NCBI RefSeq assembly: GCF_021391675.1 | Contig: NZ_CP090096.1 | Span: 868,001 to 932,000 of the forward strand | DNA: 64,000 nucleotides | DNA from: Neorhizobium galegae | GTDB taxonomy: Bacteria; Pseudomonadota; Alphaproteobacteria; Rhizobiales; Rhizobiaceae | Reading direction: 5' to 3' | In this document: piece by piece, positions 49,531-58,696 of the stretch | Layout: every line of letters starts with the position of its first letter | Numbering within the stretch: the stretch's first letter is position 1 | Program-made: the position numbers and the translations under genes | Notes under the pieces: generated by a model | Told to the model about the DNA's origin: nothing | Database searches by the model: none | The model's input: the letters and a program-made list of their open reading frames with translations, nothing else

Positions 49531-49818
49531 ATGGTCGAAGTTCGCAGAACGGCAGCCTTCTCAAAGTGGTTCAATTCGCTCAAGGACATTCGCGCTCAGG
49601 CCCGCATACAAACGCGGATCGACCGTCTCGGGCTTGGGCTGCTCGGGGATGCGAAATTCTTCGACGGTATCGGCGAGCTTCGCATCGACTACGGTCCCGG
49701 CTACCGCCTCTACTTTGTGAAGCGAGGTAGTGAGATCATCCTCCTCCTTTGTGGCGGCGACAAGAGCGCGCAGAGGAAGGACATCCAACAGGCCATCGAA
49801 ATGGCGAAGGAGATCTGA
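49531..49818 (+). CDS. RelE/ParE-superfamily toxin (addiction-module killer protein)
   Basis: A 95-residue protein. It has the pattern VRRTAAFSKWFNSLKDIRAQ, RIDRLGLGLLGDAKFFDGIG, LRIDYGPGYRLYFVKRGSEI and LLLCGGDKSAQRKDIQQAIE, which fits the putative killer-protein branch of the RelE/HigB fold. Such toxins cleave mRNA at the ribosome or otherwise halt growth. The gene comes before its antitoxin gene, separated by one base, as usual for HigBA-like modules. Start ATG 49531 gives the normal length. Confidence 0.88.
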   Translation: MVEVRRTAAFSKWFNSLKDIRAQARIQTRIDRLGLGLLGDAKFFDGIGELRIDYGPGYRLYFVKRGSEIILLLCGGDKSAQRKDIQQAIEMAKEI

Positions 49819-49819
49819 C

Positions 49820-50116
49820 ATGGCGATTGAAACGACCAAATGGGATCCGACCGAATTCCTCACCAGCGAAGAAGCAATCGCCGCCTATCTAGAAGCCGCC
49901 TTCGAGGATGGGGACCCGGCGGTCATCGCTGTTGTTCTTGGAAACATTGCGAGAGCCAAAGGCATGACCAATGTCGCCAAGGAAGCGGGCATTACTCGCG
50001 AGGCGCTCTACAAGGCGCTGAGCGATAAGGGAGATCCGAAGCTTTCCACACTGCTCGGTGTCTTGAAGGCCCTCGGACTCCGAGTCACGGTCGTTTCCGC
50101 CAACGAAGCGGCATAG
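49820..50116 (+). CDS. Antitoxin with XRE-like helix-turn-helix (addiction-module antidote)
   Basis: A 98-residue protein. N-terminal segment WDPTEFLTSEEAIAAYLEAA, then a helix-turn-helix NVAKEAGITREALYKALSDK and the end LSTLLGVLKALGLRVTVVSA. This fits the antidote family paired with the killer-protein branch. It should bind the toxin and repress its own operon. The module sits between modC and a sugar importer without obvious relation to either. Start ATG 49820 is one base after the toxin stop. Confidence 0.88.
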   Translation: MAIETTKWDPTEFLTSEEAIAAYLEAAFEDGDPAVIAVVLGNIARAKGMTNVAKEAGITREALYKALSDKGDPKLSTLLGVLKALGLRVTVVSANEAA

Positions 50117-50298
50117 GGTTCGCAGGCGGCAGAACTGTCCTGCGAAGAAATTTTGCACACGCGTACATTTTGTCATCCGGGTGTTATGGAGCCCCGCTAG
50201 ACCGCTTCCTGTTGATGATCTTCAGCGCTTCCGCAGCCTTGGGCCGACCGGTCTTTCAGGGTTCGGAAGAAGCCATTTCGCTCTTCGGGGAGTAAACC

Positions 50299-51645
50299 AT
50301 GACTGTTCTTCCGACACTCAAGTCCGCCACGCTCGCGGCCGTTCTCCTGGCCTCGACCGCCGTCTTCGCGTCCGCCAAGGATGTCACCATTTCCGTCTGG
50401 TCCGGCGGTTCCGGGCCGAACGACAACTACCGCACCGATGCCTTCGATATCGCTGCCGATATTCTCGAGCGCGAAGCCGCCATCCGCGGTCAGCAGCTCA
50501 ACATCATCGTCCAGAAGACGCCCTATTCCGGCTGGGAAGATTTCAAGCAGGCGCTGACGCTGGCCGCCGAAGCCAAGAAGGCTCCGAACATCGTCGCCAC
50601 CGGCCATGAAGACATCGGCCCCTGGGCGCAGGCTGGCCTCATCGTTCCGGTCGAGAAGTTCATCGACCTCGACTCGTGGCCGATCAGCGACATCTATCCG
50701 AACCTGATGGAGATCACCTCCTTCAACGGCTCCGTCTACGGCATCCCGCAAGACGCTGAGTCCCGTCCGTTCTTCTTCTGGAAGCCTTACATGAAGGCGA
50801 TCGGCTATTCGGAGGCCGATATCGAGGCTCTGCCGGCCAAGGTCGAAAAGGGCGAATATACGCTCAAGAACGTGCTCGAAGACGCCAAGAAGATGCAGGA
50901 CAAGGGCCTCGTCCAGGCCGGCTACGGCTTTTATCCGCGCACCAATAACGGCCCGGACTACTGGCAGTTCTACACGTCTTTCGGCGGCGTGATGGAAGAG
51001 GAAGGCAAGCTCGTCTTCGATAAGGCCGCGATGAAGCGCACCTACCAGTATTTCGCCGATCTCGTGAAGGCCGGCGTCACCAAGAAGAACCATATCGGCA
51101 TGCCGGGCGACCAGTGGTGGAAGGAAGTTGCAACCGGCAAGGCCGGCATCTGGCACGGCGGCACCTGGCATTATGCCCGTCTCGTCAACCAGGAAGGCCT
51201 GAAGGACTTCTTCACCAACGTTCAGTTCACGCTCGTACCGGCCGGCGAAGGCGGCAAGGCCAACACACTGACCCATCCGCTTGCTTACCTGCTGATGGCC
51301 GGCCATACCGAAGAAGAAACCCAGATCGCGGCCGACCTGATCAAGATCGCCTCCGAGCCACGCATCAATGCGCTGCATGCGATCAAGTCCGCCCATCTCG
51401 GTATCTCGCCTTCCGAAACCAAGGTCGACCTCTATGCGGCCGACCGCTGGGCTTCGGAAGCCACCGAACGCCTTCTGCCGCATGCCAACGCCATGCCGAA
51501 CAATGCCGATTTCGGCAAGTACTGGACGATCATGTGGAAGAACTTCGAAGCCTCCTGGACGGGTGCCAAGACCGCCGATGCCGCGGTCAACGATGCCGAA
51601 GCCGAGCTGAAGTCGACACTCGGCGCGGCGATCATCATCCGCTGA
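50299..51645 (+). CDS. ABC transporter substrate-binding protein, carbohydrate family (CUT1 type)
   Basis: A 448-residue exported protein. Signal peptide SATLAAVLLASTAVFASA, then KDVTISVWSGGSGPNDN at the mature N-terminus. Domain 1 has NIIVQKTPYSGWEDFKQAL, domain 2 IPQDAESRPFFFWKPYMK and KAGIWHGGTWHYARLVN, the pattern of MalE/UgpB-like proteins of CUT1 importers. Aromatic residues (FFFW, QWW, GTWHY) line the site. It is the first gene of the operon that includes two permeases, an ATPase, the GDPD-LacI fusion and an inositol-monophosphatase-like gene. Likely ligand: a glycerophosphodiester or related polyol phosphate. GGGGAG precedes the start by seven bases. Confidence 0.92.
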   Translation: MTVLPTLKSATLAAVLLASTAVFASAKDVTISVWSGGSGPNDNYRTDAFDIAADILEREAAIRGQQLNIIVQKTPYSGWEDFKQALTLAAEAKKAPNIVATGHEDIGPWAQAGLIVPVEKFIDLDSWPISDIYPNLMEITSFNGSVYGIPQDAESRPFFFWKPYMKAIGYSEADIEALPAKVEKGEYTLKNVLEDAKKMQDKGLVQAGYGFYPRTNNGPDYWQFYTSFGGVMEEEGKLVFDKAAMKRTYQYFADLVKAGVTKKNHIGMPGDQWWKEVATGKAGIWHGGTWHYARLVNQEGLKDFFTNVQFTLVPAGEGGKANTLTHPLAYLLMAGHTEEETQIAADLIKIASEPRINALHAIKSAHLGISPSETKVDLYAADRWASEATERLLPHANAMPNNADFGKYWTIMWKNFEASWTGAKTADAAVNDAEAELKSTLGAAIIIR

Positions 51646-51689: not shown

Positions 51690-51777
51690 GACTGTAACCG
51701 GGCGAAACTCCTCGCCTCGAACTGTGGGCGGCGCTCGCTCCGCCGCCCACACCCATCCGTCTCCCAAGGCTTCACCC

Positions 51778-53079
51778 ATGCGAACGTCCCGAACGCTCGG
51801 ACTGGTGATGATCGCGCCCGCTGCGGTCATGATCGTCCTGTTCTTCCTGGTGCCGGTCGTCCTGACCGCCATCTTCGCCATGACCAATATGAGCACCGCG
51901 ACCGGCATTTCCGGCGGCGCCTGGCAGGTCACGCAAGGCGCCATCAACCGCCTGAAGGCAGACATGCCGGACCTTGCGGGCGGCATTGCCGAGCCGCGTT
52001 TCGTCATCGACGAGGAGGGGCTTGCAGCGCTGGAGGCCCTGAAGCTCAAGGCAGGTTTCAGCACTGAACTGCGCACCAGCCACATGGGCGAGGTCTTTCC
52101 CTCGCGTCGCGAGGCCGAACGCATGATCAAGGCGCTGAAGGACCGGCCCTCGACCCGCGAGGTCAAGCAGCTCTCCGACCTCTTCAACCGCTCGGTTCTG
52201 AATACCCGTTTCGAGACCCGCGACGGACTGATGGCGAGCCTCAAGAAGCTCGGCTTTAAACTGACGCCGGCCGAACAGGAGACGGTCGCCACGGCCACCT
52301 ATACCGGCTGGGTGTGGACGACGGAAAATTTCAGGATCATCGGCAACTCGCCGGACATGGCGCAGATCTTCCTCAACACCGCCTTCTACGTCTCGGTGAC
52401 GCTGCTCGTGTTCAACGTCAGTTACGCGCTCTTCCTCGCCATCACGACCCACTACATGCCGGCTTCGACCGCATCCGTCTTCCGCGCCATCTGGCTGCTG
52501 CCGCGCATCACGCCGGTCGTCATCTACGTGCTGATGTGGAAATGGCTGACCTGGGATAGCGGCTTCATCTCGATGTTCATGGGCCAGTTCGGTTACCCAG
52601 CGAAAAACTACCTGCTCGACAGTGCCTACAACGCCTGGTTCTTCGTGATCCTGATCAACGGCTTCATCGGCGCTTCGATGGGTATGCTGGTCTTCTCTTC
52701 CGCCATCAAGGCGATCCCGCAGACGCAGTTCCATGCAAGCGAGGTCGATGGCGCCAGCCGCTGGCAGCAGGTCCGCCACGTCATCCTGCCGCAGCTTCGC
52801 TGGCCGATCCTGTTCGTCACATGCTACCAGACCCTGTCGCTTCTCGCCTCCTTCAACGAAATCCTCCTCTCGACCCGCGGCGGGCCGGGGCGGGCGACCG
52901 AAGTATGGTCGCTCGCCGCCTACCACACCGCGCTCAACAACTATACCGGCAATCTGGAATACGGGCTGGGCGCCGCCATGGCGCTGGTGCTGGTGGTTGT
53001 CGGCATCGTCCTGTCGCTCATCTACCTGCGCATCTTCCGTTACGATACGCTGATCTCCAAGCCGCTGATCGAGGATTGA
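51778..53079 (+). CDS. ABC transporter permease (CUT1 type) with an extra periplasmic domain
   Basis: A 433-residue permease, about 130 residues longer than typical UgpA/MalF-like subunits. The first helix is LGLVMIAPAAVMIVLFFLVP. A soluble stretch of about 160 residues (roughly 45-190, rich in charged residues and containing RFVIDEEGLAALEALKLK) precedes the second helix near IFLNTAFYVSVTLLVF. The remaining core is normal, with the coupling helix EVDGASRWQQVRHVILPQLR and TRGGPGRATEVWSLAAYHTA. The extra domain must lie in the periplasm and could contact the binding protein, like the P2 loop of MalF. ATG 51778 was chosen; a GTG earlier has no support. Confidence 0.9.
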   Translation: MRTSRTLGLVMIAPAAVMIVLFFLVPVVLTAIFAMTNMSTATGISGGAWQVTQGAINRLKADMPDLAGGIAEPRFVIDEEGLAALEALKLKAGFSTELRTSHMGEVFPSRREAERMIKALKDRPSTREVKQLSDLFNRSVLNTRFETRDGLMASLKKLGFKLTPAEQETVATATYTGWVWTTENFRIIGNSPDMAQIFLNTAFYVSVTLLVFNVSYALFLAITTHYMPASTASVFRAIWLLPRITPVVIYVLMWKWLTWDSGFISMFMGQFGYPAKNYLLDSAYNAWFFVILINGFIGASMGMLVFSSAIKAIPQTQFHASEVDGASRWQQVRHVILPQLRWPILFVTCYQTLSLLASFNEILLSTRGGPGRATEVWSLAAYHTALNNYTGNLEYGLGAAMALVLVVVGIVLSLIYLRIFRYDTLISKPLIED

Positions 53080-53081
53080 GC

Positions 53082-53939
53082 ATGGCCGAAAAACCGCAAA
53101 TTTCGTCAAACACGACCTCGGCGAATTTCTCGAGCCTCCCGGTTATCCTGCTGCTCGGCCTTTTCAGCCTGCCGCTGCTGGTGATGTATGCCTATCTCTT
53201 CATCGATACGATCAGCGACACGGAAGTCGGCTCGCTGATCCCGAACGAGTTCACGCTGCGCCACTGGAGTTTCCTTTGGGAGACCAAGACCGGCAAGCCG
53301 AACATCTGGCTCGTCACGCTCAATACCTTCATCTTCGCAAGCTGCATCACCGGCGTCATCCTCACGGTCTCGTCGATGGCGGGTTATGTCCTGTCGCGCC
53401 TCAACGTGCCGGCACGCGGCTTTTTCCTCGCCGGCGTCATGGTGCTGCACGCCTTCCCGTCGGTGACGCTGATCATCGCCATCTTCATCGTGCTGCAGTG
53501 GATCGGCCTCTACAATTCACTGATCGGGGTGATCCTGGTGAAGGCTGCGGTCGAACTTCCGCTCGGCATCTGGCTGATGAAGGGTTTCTACGACACGGTG
53601 TCCTGGGAAATCGAGATGGCCGGCATCGTCGACGGCGCGTCGCGCTTCACGGTCTGGCGCCGGCTGGTGCTGCCGCAGATCAAGCCGGCGGTGATGGCGC
53701 TTGGCCTCTTTTCCTTCCTCACCGGCTGGAGCGAGTTCATCATGCCGCAGGTGCTGGCGCCAGGCGCGAAGGTGCAGGTCCTGTCGGTCTATCTGGCGGG
53801 CCTGATCATCGACGACAACAATTTCGATTTCGGCACCTTCAAGGCCGTCGGCGTCTTCTACGTCGTGCCGGTGCTGATCCTCTATGTCTTCTTCCAGAAG
53901 CATCTCATGAACATCTATGGCGGAGGCACCAAGGGCTGA
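53082..53939 (+). CDS. ABC transporter permease (CUT1 type)
   Basis: A 285-residue permease of MalG/UgpE type. First helix LPVILLLGLFSLPLLVMYAY, second VILTVSSMAGYVLSRLNVPA, coupling helix EMAGIVDGASRFTVWRRLVL and last helices VFYVVPVLILYVFFQKHLM. It pairs with the permease at 51778. Start is two bases after that gene's stop. Its own stop overlaps the ATPase start (TGATG). Confidence 0.94.
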   Translation: MAEKPQISSNTTSANFSSLPVILLLGLFSLPLLVMYAYLFIDTISDTEVGSLIPNEFTLRHWSFLWETKTGKPNIWLVTLNTFIFASCITGVILTVSSMAGYVLSRLNVPARGFFLAGVMVLHAFPSVTLIIAIFIVLQWIGLYNSLIGVILVKAAVELPLGIWLMKGFYDTVSWEIEMAGIVDGASRFTVWRRLVLPQIKPAVMALGLFSFLTGWSEFIMPQVLAPGAKVQVLSVYLAGLIIDDNNFDFGTFKAVGVFYVVPVLILYVFFQKHLMNIYGGGTKG

Positions 53940-54994
53940 TGCGTATACTGCTCGACAAGTTTTCTAAGAGTTTTGGCTCCACCAAGATCATCGAGGACAT
54001 GGACCTCGAGGTCGGCTCCGGCGAAATGCTGGCACTGCTCGGGCCTTCCGGCTGCGGCAAGTCGACGACGCTGTTTGCCGTCTGCGGCATTCATCGGCCG
54101 ACCTCGGGCCGCATCTTGTTCGGCGACCGGGACGTCACCCATCTGCCGAGCCAGGAACGCAATGTCGGCGTCGTCTTCCAGTCCTATGCGCTTTATCCGC
54201 ATATGACGGTGGAGGAGAATATCGGCTTCCCGCTGATGGTGAAGCGGGTTGCCTCCGCCGATATCAAGAGGCAGGTCTCCGATATCGCGGCGCTTGTCCA
54301 TATCGAAGATCTCCTGGGGCGGCGCCCGGCGCAGCTTTCCGGCGGCCAGCAGCAGCGCGTGGCGCTCGCCCGTGCCTTGATCCGCCGCCCGGACGTGCTG
54401 CTCCTCGACGAGCCGCTCGCCAATCTCGACGCAAAACTCCGCCTCGAAATGCGCTCGGAAATCCGCCGGCTGCAGAAGGAGACGGGTATCACCGCCATCC
54501 TCGTTACCCATGACCAGGTCGAGGCGATGTCGATGTGCGACCGCATCGCCATCATGAAATCGGGCGAGATCGTCCAGATCGCCACCCCGTCGGATATGTA
54601 CAAGGATCCTCGGACGTCCTTCGTTGCCAGTTTCCTCGGCAATCCGCCGATCTCCTTCCTCAAGGGCCGGGCCCAGCAGGGGGTTTTCGTGCTCGGTGAA
54701 AACGGCCTGCGCCTGCCGCTTGCCGCGGTTTCGGGTATTTCCGACGGCACCGCGCTCAGCCTCGGTGTCCGTCCCGAGCATTTCGGGACGGCAGGCGGTG
54801 TGCCCGTCGAGGGCAAGGTCGTGTTTGCGGAAACGCAAGGCCGCGAGAACCTTTACGACGTCGTACTGCCGGACGGCTCCGTGCTGCGCTCGATCCAGCC
54901 GGTGCGCGACGACGTGAAGCCGGGCGACAGCGTGCGCTGGAACCTCGACAGCGCCTCGACCTTCGTTTTCGCCGAAGACGGACAGAGATTGTGA
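53939..54994 (+). CDS. ABC transporter ATP-binding protein (MalK/UgpC type)
   Basis: A 351-residue ATPase. Walker [15 protein letters not shown]-loop VFQSYALYPHMTVEENIGF, signature [16 protein letters not shown], Walker B VLLLDEPLANLDAKLR, switch His in LVTHDQVEAMSM. The C-terminal TOBE/OB region (about 240-351) contains FLGNPPISFLKGR and LGVRPEHFG. It powers the two permeases. A single ATPase usually suffices as a dimer. The stop lies 11 bases before the chosen start of the GDPD-LacI gene. Confidence 0.95.
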   Translation: MRILLDKFSKSFGSTKIIEDMDLEVGSGEMLALLGPSGCGKSTTLFAVCGIHRPTSGRILFGDRDVTHLPSQERNVGVVFQSYALYPHMTVEENIGFPLMVKRVASADIKRQVSDIAALVHIEDLLGRRPAQLSGGQQQRVALARALIRRPDVLLLDEPLANLDAKLRLEMRSEIRRLQKETGITAILVTHDQVEAMSMCDRIAIMKSGEIVQIATPSDMYKDPRTSFVASFLGNPPISFLKGRAQQGVFVLGENGLRLPLAAVSGISDGTALSLGVRPEHFGTAGGVPVEGKVVFAETQGRENLYDVVLPDGSVLRSIQPVRDDVKPGDSVRWNLDSASTFVFAEDGQRL

Positions 54995-55005
54995 CGGAGG
55001 CTTCG

Positions 55006-56745
55006 ATGCGCGACTTTTCCGCCTTCTTCGGCAAATTCGGCTGGCCGGAAGGGAAGAACCGGCTGCCATTCTGCATCGGCCATCGCGGTGCAAGCGGCCA
55101 TGAACGGGAAAACACGCTCACCGCCTTCCGCCGCGCTGCCGAACTCGGCGCCGAAATGTGGGAACTCGATACCCAGATGACCTCGGACGGCGTGGTCGTT
55201 GTCTCCCATGACGATCACCTGCAACGGGTCTTCCAGAAGGACCTGCACATTTCGCAGATGACGTTTGCGGAGCTGCGCGCGGCGGTACCGGATGTGCCGA
55301 GCTTTGCGGAAGTCGCAGCGCTCGGGCGGGAGACCGGTTGCGGCCTTTACGTCGAGCTGAAGCGGCCGGGCACCGGCCCGCTCTGCTGGCAGCACCTGAA
55401 GGACATGGACCAGCCGTTCGCCTGTCTCGGTTCCTTCGATACCGCCCAGGTGCGCGAGTTGCGCGAGATGGGCTGCGACTATCCGCTTTCGGTGCTGATC
55501 CGTGTCGGCCACGATCCGCATGCGGCAGGGGAGGCGGCCGGCGCCGATATCCTGCATCTGTGCTGGGAAAAGGCGAGCGATACGCCGCAGGAATTCGTCA
55601 CCGAGGAACTGATCGACAGGGCTTTTGCCGAGGGCAAGGAGCTCGTGCTCTGGCACGAGGAGCGACCGGATGTGCTGAAAGACATCATGGCACTGCCGGT
55701 GCTCGGCATCTGCACCGATCTGCCGGACCTGATGCGGTCAAGGGAAACGAACAGCGTTTCCCGCGAGCCCCGCCGCGTCACCTCCTTCGACGTCGCCCGG
55801 GCGGCCGGCGTCTCCCGTGCCGCCGTGTCGCGCGCCTTCACACCGGATGCCAGCGTTTCGGAAAAAACCCGGCAGAAAGTGTATCAGGCTGCCAAGGAGC
55901 TCGGCTACCGGGTCAACTATCTCGCCCGCAGCCTCACCAACAAGCGGTCCGATTTCGTCGGCCTGGTTGCGGCGGGCCTCGACAACCCGTTCCGCACCCA
56001 GCAGCTCGAAAATCTCGCCCGTGCGCTGATCGCCCGCAACTACCGGCCGATCCTGCTGCCGACCTCCAAGGAAGCGGACAGCGCCACCGTTATCGGCCAG
56101 TTGCTGCATTACGCCGTCTCCGGGGTCATCATCACCTCGGATGCGCCGCCCTCGCATATTTTCGAGGAATGCGCGGTCGAGGGCGTGCCGATCGTGCTGG
56201 TCAACAAGGGCGAGGATTTTCCCTTCGTCGACCGGGTCGTCTCCGATGACCGGATGTCGGGTTACACCGCCGTCGACCATCTCGTCGAAGCGGGCGCCAA
56301 GAGGCTCGCCGTCATCGCCGGTAAGGCCGTCTCCTATTCCTCGCGCCGCCGCGCCGAGGCGTTTCAGAGCCGCTGCCAGATGCTCGGGCTCGATGCACCA
56401 CTGATCCCGGTCGCCATCAATGATTACGCCCATGGGCACGAGGCGGCGCGGGCGCTGATCGACATCGGCATAGACGGGGTGTTTTCGGTCAACGACTACA
56501 TGGCCTGCGGCGTGCTCGACGGGCTCGCCAAGGCCGGCCGGAGCTACGGTTCGGTCAAGGTGATCGGTCATGACGACATCCCTCAGGCAAGCTGGTCGGC
56601 CTATGACCTCACCACCTTCGTACAGCCCTGCGACGTCCAGGCGGAACAGGTGATCGATCTCCTGACCAGCCGGATGTCCGAACCGGACGCGGTCGCGCGG
56701 GTGGAATTCACGCCGGTGACGCTGATCAAAAGAAGAAGTGCATAA
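55006..56745 (+). CDS. Fusion protein: glycerophosphodiester phosphodiesterase + LacI-family regulator
   Basis: A 579-residue single reading frame with two complete modules. Residues about 20-245 are a GDPD TIM barrel with HRGASGHERENTL (His26), Glu53 and Asp55 in WELDTQMTSDG, His68 in VVSHDD, and VELKRPG (Glu117, Lys119): all catalytic and metal residues intact. It ends with the usual ICTDLPDL. A short linker leads to a LacI helix-turn-helix from residue 258 (TSFDVARAAGVSRAAVSRAF), hinge and sugar-binding domain to the end. No stop, frameshift or ribosome site with start codon separates them; an AAGGGA at 55740-55745 may be a relic. The enzyme should cleave glycerophosphodiesters; the LacI part should control this operon. 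ATG 55006 follows GGAGG by five bases. Confidence 0.9.
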   Translation: MRDFSAFFGKFGWPEGKNRLPFCIGHRGASGHERENTLTAFRRAAELGAEMWELDTQMTSDGVVVVSHDDHLQRVFQKDLHISQMTFAELRAAVPDVPSFAEVAALGRETGCGLYVELKRPGTGPLCWQHLKDMDQPFACLGSFDTAQVRELREMGCDYPLSVLIRVGHDPHAAGEAAGADILHLCWEKASDTPQEFVTEELIDRAFAEGKELVLWHEERPDVLKDIMALPVLGICTDLPDLMRSRETNSVSREPRRVTSFDVARAAGVSRAAVSRAFTPDASVSEKTRQKVYQAAKELGYRVNYLARSLTNKRSDFVGLVAAGLDNPFRTQQLENLARALIARNYRPILLPTSKEADSATVIGQLLHYAVSGVIITSDAPPSHIFEECAVEGVPIVLVNKGEDFPFVDRVVSDDRMSGYTAVDHLVEAGAKRLAVIAGKAVSYSSRRRAEAFQSRCQMLGLDAPLIPVAINDYAHGHEAARALIDIGIDGVFSVNDYMACGVLDGLAKAGRSYGSVKVIGHDDIPQASWSAYDLTTFVQPCDVQAEQVIDLLTSRMSEPDAVARVEFTPVTLIKRRSA

Positions 56746-57570
56746 ATGGTATCTGCATTCGATCTCTCCTCCCTGCAATCCCGCGAAAAGATCGCAATCG
56801 AGGTCGCCCGCCGGGTCGGCATGGAGGCCGCTGCCTTCCGCGCCGAAGCGCTTCCCGAAACGCTCGGTGTCGAGAACAAGGGCCTGCAGGATTTCGTCAC
56901 CGTCGCCGACAAGCGGGCTGAAAAAGCGATCCGCGCATCCCTGCTCGGCGAATTCCCTGACGATTCCTTCATGGGCGAGGAGGGTGGGGGGCAGTCCGGA
57001 GACCGCGGTACCTGGGTGGTCGATCCGATCGACGGCACCACCAATTTCATCCGCGGCTTCCGCCACTGGGGTGTCTCGATCGCCTTCGTCTCCGGCGGCG
57101 AGATCCTGGTGGGCGTGATCTACGACGCCGCGCAGGACCGGGTTTTTCACGCGATTCGGGGTGAGGGCGCCTTCAAGGAAGGCAAGCCGATCGCGGCGGC
57201 CAAGACCAGCGATCCCAACCAAGCGATCGCCATTCTCGGCCATTCCCGCCGCACCGATTTCGAGGACTACCTCGCGATCTCCCGAAAACTCTACGAGCGC
57301 GGCATCGACTACCGCCGCATGGGGGCCGCCGCGATCGGCCTCATCCGCGTCGCCGAGGGTGTATCCGATCTCTATTACGAACGGCACCTTTCATCCTGGG
57401 ACATGCTGGCCGGGGTGCTGATCGCCTCGGAGGCCGGCGCAACGATCGCCGTGCCGCCGCTCGAGGAACTGCTTTCACGCGGTGGGCCAGTGGTCGCCTG
57501 TTCGCGCGGGCTTGCCAGTGAATTCGCCTTCCTGATGGAAATGGAAGGCCTGTTCGTCGCGGCTGAATGA
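56746..57570 (+). CDS. Inositol-monophosphatase-family phosphatase
   Basis: A 274-residue enzyme of the IMPase/CysQ/histidinol-phosphatase superfamily. Metal-binding residues are in MGEEGGG (Glu pair), WVVDPIDGTTNFIRGF (Asp, Asp) and SSWDMLAGVLIASEAGA. LQDFVTVADKRAEKAI is the conserved start. It should remove phosphate from a sugar or polyol phosphate. Its start codon directly follows the stop of the GDPD-LacI gene. Together with GDPD this suggests cleavage of a glycerophosphodiester, then dephosphorylation of the released alcohol phosphate. Histidinol-phosphate or nucleotide phosphates are alternative substrates of the family. Confidence 0.9.
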   Translation: MVSAFDLSSLQSREKIAIEVARRVGMEAAAFRAEALPETLGVENKGLQDFVTVADKRAEKAIRASLLGEFPDDSFMGEEGGGQSGDRGTWVVDPIDGTTNFIRGFRHWGVSIAFVSGGEILVGVIYDAAQDRVFHAIRGEGAFKEGKPIAAAKTSDPNQAIAILGHSRRTDFEDYLAISRKLYERGIDYRRMGAAAIGLIRVAEGVSDLYYERHLSSWDMLAGVLIASEAGATIAVPPLEELLSRGGPVVACSRGLASEFAFLMEMEGLFVAAE

Positions 57571-57638: not shown

Positions 57639-57664
57639 CCTGATACCTCTGCTAAGTGATTTTG

Positions 57665-58696
57665 ATGCCATTCGAAGACAAAAAGAAAAGCCGTGTGACG
57701 CTTCTCGACGTAGCGCGGCGCGCCAATGTTTCCCGCGCCACCGCCTCGCTCGTCATCCGCAAGAGCCCGCTGGTCGGTACTGAGACGCGGGCGCGTGTCG
57801 AGGAAGCGATGCGCGAGCTCGGCTATGTCTACAACATGGGGGCCGCCCGGCTCCGGGCCGAGCGCAGCCACACCGTCGGCGTCATCGTACCCAATCTGAC
57901 GAACCCGTTCTTCGCCGAACTGCTGTCCGGCATCGAGGCGGTGATCGATTCGGCCGGCATGGTGGTGATCCTTGCCAATAGCGGCGATCTCGTCGAACGG
58001 CAGGACATGGTGATGCGGCGCATGCGCGAACACGGCGTCGATGGCGTTATCGTCTGCCCGGCGGCCGACACCGAACCCGCGTTCCTTCACCGGCTCGCCG
58101 AATGGAATCTACCCTTGGTGCAGGTGCTCCGCCAGATTTCCGAAGAAGTCGATTATGCCGGTTCCGATTATGCGGCGGGCATGCGCCAGGCGGTGGATTA
58201 TCTCGCTTCGCTCGGCCACCGGACGATCGCTTTTGCCGTCCATGGGCCGATCCATTCCGCCTATCGCGAGCGCGTCGAAGGATTTTGCGATGCCATGCAG
58301 TCGCGCGGGCTCGATCCGAGCATGATCGTGCGCCTGCCGATCCAGATCGGCGAGATCGCCGATGCGGCGCATCTCCTGTTCGGCGAGGGCGAACAGCCGA
58401 CGGCGGTGATCTGCTTCAACGACGTGATCGCACTCGGCCTTTCCGCCGGCCTCTACGATCGGGGCCTGAAGGTCGGCGAGAACTTTTCGCTGATCGGTTT
58501 CGACGACGTGACGGACGCGGAGGCTATGCGACCAAGGCTCACCTCCGTTTCCACCGCACCGGTGACGATCGGCGCGAATGCCGCGAGGCTTCTCCTCGAC
58601 CGGCTGACCGATCCCACCCACCCGTCTCGCAAGGTTGTGAATGAAACGGTTTTGCATATCCGCCAATCCTGCGGGCCAGTGGCCATTTCGGCCTGA
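57665..58696 (+). CDS. LacI-family transcriptional regulator
   Basis: A 343-residue regulator. DNA-binding domain (about 10-65): RVTLLDVARRANVSRATASL, hinge GYVYNMGAARLRAERSHTVG. The effector domain has VPNLTNPFFAELLSGIEAVI, the YAGSDYAAGMRQAVDYLASL segment, ICFNDVIALGLSAGLYDRG and FDDVTDAEAMRPRLTSVST. It is followed by the amino-acid-type ABC operon, with a perfect palindrome (58739-58754) in between, so it probably controls that operon. LacI control of such an importer is uncommon. ATG 57665 was chosen over a GTG three codons earlier. Confidence 0.93.
   Translation: MPFEDKKKSRVTLLDVARRANVSRATASLVIRKSPLVGTETRARVEEAMRELGYVYNMGAARLRAERSHTVGVIVPNLTNPFFAELLSGIEAVIDSAGMVVILANSGDLVERQDMVMRRMREHGVDGVIVCPAADTEPAFLHRLAEWNLPLVQVLRQISEEVDYAGSDYAAGMRQAVDYLASLGHRTIAFAVHGPIHSAYRERVEGFCDAMQSRGLDPSMIVRLPIQIGEIADAAHLLFGEGEQPTAVICFNDVIALGLSAGLYDRGLKVGENFSLIGFDDVTDAEAMRPRLTSVSTAPVTIGANAARLLLDRLTDPTHPSRKVVNETVLHIRQSCGPVAISA

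Follow-up and report, generated by a model that had tools for sequence, protein, structure and literature searches.

A glycerophosphodiesterase and a LacI-type repressor in one reading frame: a probable enzyme-repressor fusion in Neorhizobium and its relatives

In the stretch of Neorhizobium galegae DNA analysed here (64,000 nucleotides, referred to as the window), a glycerophosphodiesterase (GDPD) and a LacI-type repressor share one reading frame. The locus raises the question of whether the two form a single genuine protein and, if so, what the joining of a catabolic enzyme to a repressor does for the operon in which it lies. The frame runs from ATG to stop with no internal stop codon, and in the chain that it encodes a short flexible linker connects a GDPD barrel to a complete LacI repressor:

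55006-56745, + strand: 579-aa GDPD-LacI fusion gene; frame open at all 26 fused loci
55081-55728, + strand: GDPD barrel, residues 26-241 (PF03009; AlphaFold block)
55741-55773, + strand: flexible linker, residues 246-256 (pLDDT below 50; length variants are multiples of three)
55789-55917, + strand: LacI helix-turn-helix, residues 262-304 (PF00356; dN/dS 0.006-0.032 over residues 258-305)
55954-56739, + strand: LacI effector-binding/dimerisation domain, residues 317-578

The gene starts after the stop, at 54994, of an ABC ATPase gene, and a GGAGG at 54996-55000 lies 5 bases 5' of its ATG at 55006; an alternative in-frame GTG at 54991 would add five residues. All Pfam matches on the fused protein were above the gathering score: GDPD at residues 26-241 (PF03009, 92.9 bits against a cutoff of 23.6, E 4.5e-26, with 1-243 of the 244 profile positions covered), LacI helix-turn-helix (HTH) at 262-304 (PF00356, 50.7 against 27 bits, E 1.5e-13), Peripla_BP_3 at 423-578 and Peripla_BP_1 at 317-518; in the LacI half, PF13377 scored 83.7 against 26.5 bits. 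His26, Glu53, Asp55, His68, Glu117 and Lys119, which we take to be the catalytic and metal residues of the GDPD, are invariant across all 26 fused loci. An earlier note, made from the sequence alone, had described an uninterrupted frame holding a complete barrel with these six residues and a complete repressor with HTH and effector domain, both in one chain if translated, and on these points it was borne out. Since no stop separates the halves, ribosomes translating the GDPD must run on into LacI, and the fused chain must be a translation product.

In the AlphaFold model used (pLDDT 85.0, pTM 0.49; it supersedes an earlier one with a pLDDT of 75.2), residues 21-240 form a GDPD block with pLDDT values of 79-97, and the linker, residues 246-256, falls below 50. 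The predicted structure consists of two folded parts with a disordered linker between them. Structural matches of the LacI half were LacI, PurR and RbsR; the VIA-align rows are LacI-type and sugar-binding only, a list by which the GDPD part is barely tested, and GDPD structures were found among the structural matches in a separate listing. A weak match of the GDPD part to an AvrBs2 model (21.1 bits against a cut-off of 1000) was set aside as the shared GDPD fold. LacI/GalR proteins usually begin with the HTH, at a free N terminus. Here the HTH match begins at residue 262, C-terminal to the GDPD barrel; this internal position is a departure from the usual layout and not a defining exclusion from the family. 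By frame and Pfam, one protein holds both an enzyme domain and a DNA-binding domain, which is the architecture of a trigger enzyme.

The full fused frame, free of stops, was found in 25 of the 57 genomes of the genus-level group, the window's own genome included. Matches were fewer in the family-level sample (9 of 297 genomes: 3 fused, all of the same genus, and 6 with two separate matches) and in the order-level sample (16 of 297: 2 fused, the others with separate or single matches). Two order-level genomes (G460 and G467) gave one long match containing one stop, which precedes a separate LacI ORF; judged by eye, a second GDPD domain stands before that ORF. A scan of named genomes returned 46 loci, of which 25 (L038-L062) are fused in one frame, making 26 fused loci with that of the window. 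In a large protein database, at least 36 proteins carry both the GDPD and the LacI Pfam domains (among the best 120 of 619 matches); 34 of these 36 are 522-588 aa long and 77-95% identical, and two shorter ones stand at 95%. JGI automatic protein names combine the GDPD and LacI names. We found no published description of such a fusion among the ranked open-access full texts, which for some searches were fewer than the matching papers, a coverage that takes in little of the subscription literature; in the main text of PMC4052901 the words 'fusion' and 'fused' do not occur.

Outside the fused clade, a base-by-base reading of 13 relatives (a set that includes near-duplicates, and in which the LacI starts are our own reading of the sequence) found GDPD and LacI as separate, overlapping genes out of frame with each other in 13 of 13. 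This agrees with the earlier view that the two domains are normally separate proteins, and the alignment of homologues that had been proposed as a check gave a clade that keeps the fusion and relatives, read outside it, that keep two genes. In R. johnstonii 3841 the two are annotated as separate genes with a 17-base overlap, and the LacI start is TTG. Between fixed points, most fused loci have a junction of 102 bases, and the four closest sisters have one of 118. In the alignment this net difference of 16 bases is split into a 4-base and a 12-base gap, and the 12-base gap lies between the LacI start and the GDPD stop of the sister. The fused genes have neither the GDPD stop nor the LacI start of the sister genes. 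In both domain trees (43 rows, 26 fused and 17 separate; midpoint rooting, some outgroups on long branches; L030, whose junction is the same as that of L069, L074, L075, L080 and further copies of loci used were left out), the fused set lies on one side of a single branch, with support of 100/99 and 99/95. A single origin of the fusion is most likely, because the fused loci form one clade in both trees and share a shorter junction that lacks the GDPD stop and the LacI start; several independent fusions are unsupported by the two trees. In Roseibium and Pelagibacterium, the GDPD ORF beside a separate LacI gene has two in-frame GDPD stretches by Pfam (L072:6962-8443 and L077:6923-8431, 493 and 502 aa). 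Two loci of the same order (L097, L098) have a similar double GDPD by eye, the first domain lying only partly inside the stretches taken.

Whether the junction still carries a trace of the lost gene start depends on a short motif and on the codons around it:

55740-55745, + strand: AAGGGA, possible relic of the LacI ribosome-binding site; alignment-dependent
55732-55734, + strand: Met243 codon, the RefSeq LacI start in relatives; Shine-Dalgarno (SD) energy at background

The earlier note placed AAGGGA correctly and was right that a start codon is missing after it: in the window no in-frame ATG, GTG or TTG occurs 3' of the motif before residue 274, which is inside the HTH. An internal start after AAGGGA is thereby ruled out for the window. 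Its reading of AAGGGA as a relic of the ribosome-binding site of a once-separate LacI gene is plausible and varies with the alignment. Aligned pairwise with R. johnstonii 3841, the motif falls on the AAGGAA that precedes the TTG start of LacI under 4 of 5 scoring schemes; in a multiple alignment (MAFFT) it does not fall on the sister's AAGGAA, and in pairwise comparisons with L026 and L027 its placement varies, sometimes onto a similar hexamer near the GDPD stop. Of the 26 fused loci, only 17 keep a similar core at this position.

Both halves and the linker are under purifying selection, as estimated from the coding sequences. Over the 26 fused loci, where dS is high, dN/dS was 0.12 for the GDPD (residues 20-242), 0.34 for residues 243-257, a linker with few sites, 0.03 for residues 258-305 and 0.13 for the LacI core. 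Over 11 close loci the values were 0.085 for the GDPD, 0.23 for the linker, 0.006 for residues 258-305 and 0.07 for the LacI core. Linker length departs from the mode in 5 of 26 fused loci, each time by a multiple of three.

What the protein may do is suggested by its surroundings, which form an apparent transport and cleavage operon:

50153-50168, no strand assigned: predicted operator TTGCACACGCGTACAT of the LacI half, a LacI-type palindrome 5' of the operon
50299-51645, + strand: extracellular solute-binding protein (SBP) of an ABC importer (PF13416)
51724-53079, + strand: MalF-like ABC permease, exact start uncertain
53082-53939, + strand: MalG/UgpE-like ABC permease (profile match)
53939-54994, + strand: UgpC/MalK-like ABC ATPase (profile match)
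56746-57570, + strand: inositol-monophosphatase (IMP) family phosphatase (PF00459, E 1.5e-53), beginning directly after the fused gene

The order SBP, permease, permease, ATPase, GDPD, LacI, IMP is kept at 33 of 33 loci (L038-L070), 8 of them unfused, and the IMP gene, which follows LacI at all of these, does so at 3 of 7 more distant loci (L072-L077, L079). Seven fused loci (L049, L051-L054, L060, L062) have a rather different importer, with an SBP 57-59% identical, and keep the fused gene at 75-84% domain identity despite that difference. The best match of the SBP to a solved structure (E 3e-10) is to no close relative. Just 5' of the operon, at 49730-50113, lies a gene for an HI1420-type addiction-module antidote; in the flanks examined, 3 of the 25 named fused loci (L039, L041, L059) have a match to it, and in N. 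galegae VafX2 it is annotated beside a RelE/ParE toxin gene. A second, separate LacI gene lies at 57656-58693, 3' of the phosphatase gene. Within the flanks examined, 13 of the 25 named fused loci have such a gene further downstream in the same orientation, and L063-L070 all lack it.

From palindromes common to the regions upstream of the SBP gene we derived the consensus TTGYACRCGYGTRCAA. The predicted operator differs from it by one mismatch, and no other site in the 64-kb window comes within three mismatches. Of 41 loci, 40 have a site with at most two mismatches, located 48-259 bases 5' of the SBP gene (L071 is the exception), and R. johnstonii 3841 has an operator-like site with two. Among 500 shuffles of the window's upstream region, 0.2% gave a site with at most one mismatch. 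A variant of the pattern, ending in W, matches exactly at one place in the whole genome, namely 50153-50168, and with one mismatch at one other, beside another LacI-type gene. No consensus promoter was found at the predicted operator. The motif is also present at loci without a second LacI gene and, because it persists there, most likely belongs to the GDPD-linked LacI. It is no independent evidence of binding, because it was learned from these same loci. As the palindrome is the sole good site in the window and is kept at 40 of 41 loci, the LacI half most likely still controls its own operon. Thus the LacI half is very probably, as the earlier note proposed, the repressor of that operon, a view to which the conserved predicted operator lends support.

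The explanation that best fits the whole, and in which we have good confidence, is that of a genuine enzyme-repressor fusion, formed once and long maintained, that acts in a product-induced operon. The ABC importer would bring in a phosphodiester nutrient, the cytosolic GDPD half would cut it, and the phosphorylated product, or a derivative of it made by the phosphatase, would bind to the LacI half of such a fusion protein. The ligand-bound LacI half would then leave the operator at 50153-50168, and importer, enzyme and phosphatase would be induced. A single chain fixes the ratio of enzyme to repressor at 1:1; in uninduced cells the few repressor molecules would always carry the inducer-making enzyme along, and induction, by also raising the repressor, could allow a quick shut-off of the operon once the substrate is gone. 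The sequences themselves show the single frame, its one origin, purifying selection along the whole chain, the conserved catalytic residues and the conserved predicted operator; DNA binding, enzyme activity, product rather than substrate as ligand, feedback, and any coupling of turnover to induction that goes further than the 1:1 dosage, as the earlier note envisaged it, are what we infer from the locus. A physically fused trigger enzyme is the reading of the protein that we prefer.

We infer that the GDPD product, or its dephosphorylated form, would be the ligand and would relieve repression. The closest precedent by function is that of agrocinopine, where, as described, AccR binds the AccF product and not agrocinopine itself (PMC4526662). 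The acc system (AccF phosphodiesterase, AccG phosphatase, AccR repressor) resembles the present one in import, cleavage, a phosphatase and a product-sensing repressor (PMC4526662). Importer, phosphodiesterase, phosphatase and repressor are all in our operon too, a likeness by gene content only; the acc proteins are separate, in contrast to the enzyme-repressor fusion here. The xanthosan system is an analogue only, being described with a 2H phosphoesterase and a ROK-type regulator (PMC12807533).

As to the substrate, glycerophosphoinositol or another sugar or polyol phosphodiester is weakly indicated. An inositol or sugar phosphodiester is suggested because the phosphatase adjoins the fused gene and an inositol dehydrogenase gene lies near one distant cluster. 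In that cluster, from an Anaerolineae MAG (L080:4021-5034, - strand), genes for an ABC ATPase, a GDPD, a LacI and an inositol 2-dehydrogenase lie together; the dehydrogenase scored 462.9 against a curated cut-off of 355 bits, and the GDPD is a 493-aa frame with a long N-terminal extension. No inositol 2-dehydrogenase match was found at the other loci among the 83 in the search database, and inositol as the substrate is a lead only.

It is less clear that the fusion confers anything. A deletion could have removed the GDPD stop and LacI start and left two halves that work as before, with no gain over overlapping genes; we regard this, the main rival to our preferred explanation, tentatively as a real possibility, somewhat short of probable. 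It shares most of the preferred explanation and denies only the gain, so that confidence in the one does not exclude the other. The fusion may add little because the relatives' separate genes already overlap and are probably translationally coupled, and these relatives retain both the operon and its operator. Few parts of the protein are less conserved than the linker, whose length varies, and the pTM of 0.49 gives no sign of a fixed interface between the domains. Against a neutral history, however, the 26 fused loci show no re-splitting and no in-frame stop between the halves. At the other extreme stands a self-contained sensor-enzyme, in which the GDPD half would make inducer beside the pocket of its own DNA-bound repressor, or in which the substrate-bound state would alter DNA binding, so that induction would report turnover at the operator and not the cell-wide inducer level; this seems to us rather unlikely.

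Enzyme-repressor fusion, as we prefer to read the locus, could still be accompanied by a LacI-only protein started at Met243 or, in some relatives, at a later ATG in the linker. Met243, encoded by the in-frame ATG at 55732, lies 8 bases 5' of AAGGGA and was overlooked in the earlier note; no other start codon near the junction is conserved throughout the 26 fused loci. RefSeq uses Met243: of 8 LacI-only database proteins at 80-93% identity, 6 start there, and in N. petrolearium OS53 (L086:7227-8240) the RefSeq LacI starts at Met243 with no GDPD gene before it in the table, where one missing locus tag presumably stands for a pseudogene omitted from the gene table. Six of the 8 LacI-only proteins come from contigs equal in length to those carrying loci read here as fused. 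RefSeq proteins of the fused clade thus often begin LacI at Met243, which hides the fusion. Met243 is, however, a GDPD residue, already present in the four closest unfused sisters. Its mean anti-SD energy was -2.68, versus -2.79 for 262 internal ATGs and -6.45 for assigned gene starts, the last a value that understates true starts because 6 of the 26 assigned starts are mis-set (L040, L051-L054, L062; the match begins at residue 2). Because predicted ribosome binding at Met243 equals the background of internal ATGs, a separate LacI product is improbable. The linker length variants cannot by themselves tell the fusion from a start at Met243, because they lie 3' of it. A further ATG later in the linker occurs in 6 of 26 loci (L038, L039, L040, L057, L058, L061), is not conserved and is lacking in the window. 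In L038, L040 and L058 (N. vignae and two N. galegae) it lies close to the expected site of the lost LacI start, and a LacI-only product could therefore have re-arisen there.

That the frame is an assembly artefact or a decaying pseudogene can be dismissed almost entirely: complete plasmid records of N. galegae VafX2 (L084) and Neorhizobium EC2-8 (L085) do have single-base indels in the LacI half, but of 12 genes compared these records show indels in 5 and 8, respectively, the linker has none, and the indels are likely assembly errors; the symbiont N. galegae HAMBI 540 has indels in 2 of 12 genes compared and 0 in the fused gene, the frame is intact at 26 loci, and dN/dS is well below 1. Because 25 other named loci keep the frame open, it is no product of chance or misassembly, and together with the indel comparison this rules out an assembly error.

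To our knowledge, few catabolic enzymes are a physical part of their own repressor. PutA is one likeness, a single chain that serves both as a catabolic enzyme and as the repressor of its own operon; it carries a ribbon-helix-helix domain and is redox-responsive, in contrast to the LacI-type repressor with its own effector domain found here. Because the LacI half has this domain, enzyme and sensor sites in the fused protein are distinct. In an account of such proteins, E. coli PutA, a proline dehydrogenase, is named as a DNA-binding transcription factor, and the GDPD GlpQ of M. pneumoniae is proposed as a trigger enzyme (PMC3178575). GlpQ offers a second likeness, a glycerophosphodiesterase that is linked to gene control and has a palindromic target motif, but is proposed there to bind DNA itself or via an unknown factor (PMC3178575), whereas the fused protein carries a complete LacI repressor. 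The orthologous operon of Rhizobium (R. johnstonii 3841 plasmid pRL9, RL_RS27160 and RL_RS27155) has the same gene order, overlapping genes and a similar operator; it makes two proteins and has the stop and start codons that are missing from the fused lineage. Fused clade and unfused sisters, with the same operon and a similar predicted operator, thus provide a natural comparison for the effect of tethering. The locus also illustrates that automated annotation can hide the enzyme, by trimming a genuine protein of two domains to its C-terminal half. The fused GDPD-LacI protein probably extends the trigger-enzyme idea in a new form, that of a catabolic enzyme joined to the repressor of its own operon. 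Judged from the genomes, a small deletion most likely joined the two long ago in soil bacteria related to Neorhizobium, in which one protein probably both consumes a nutrient and senses it.
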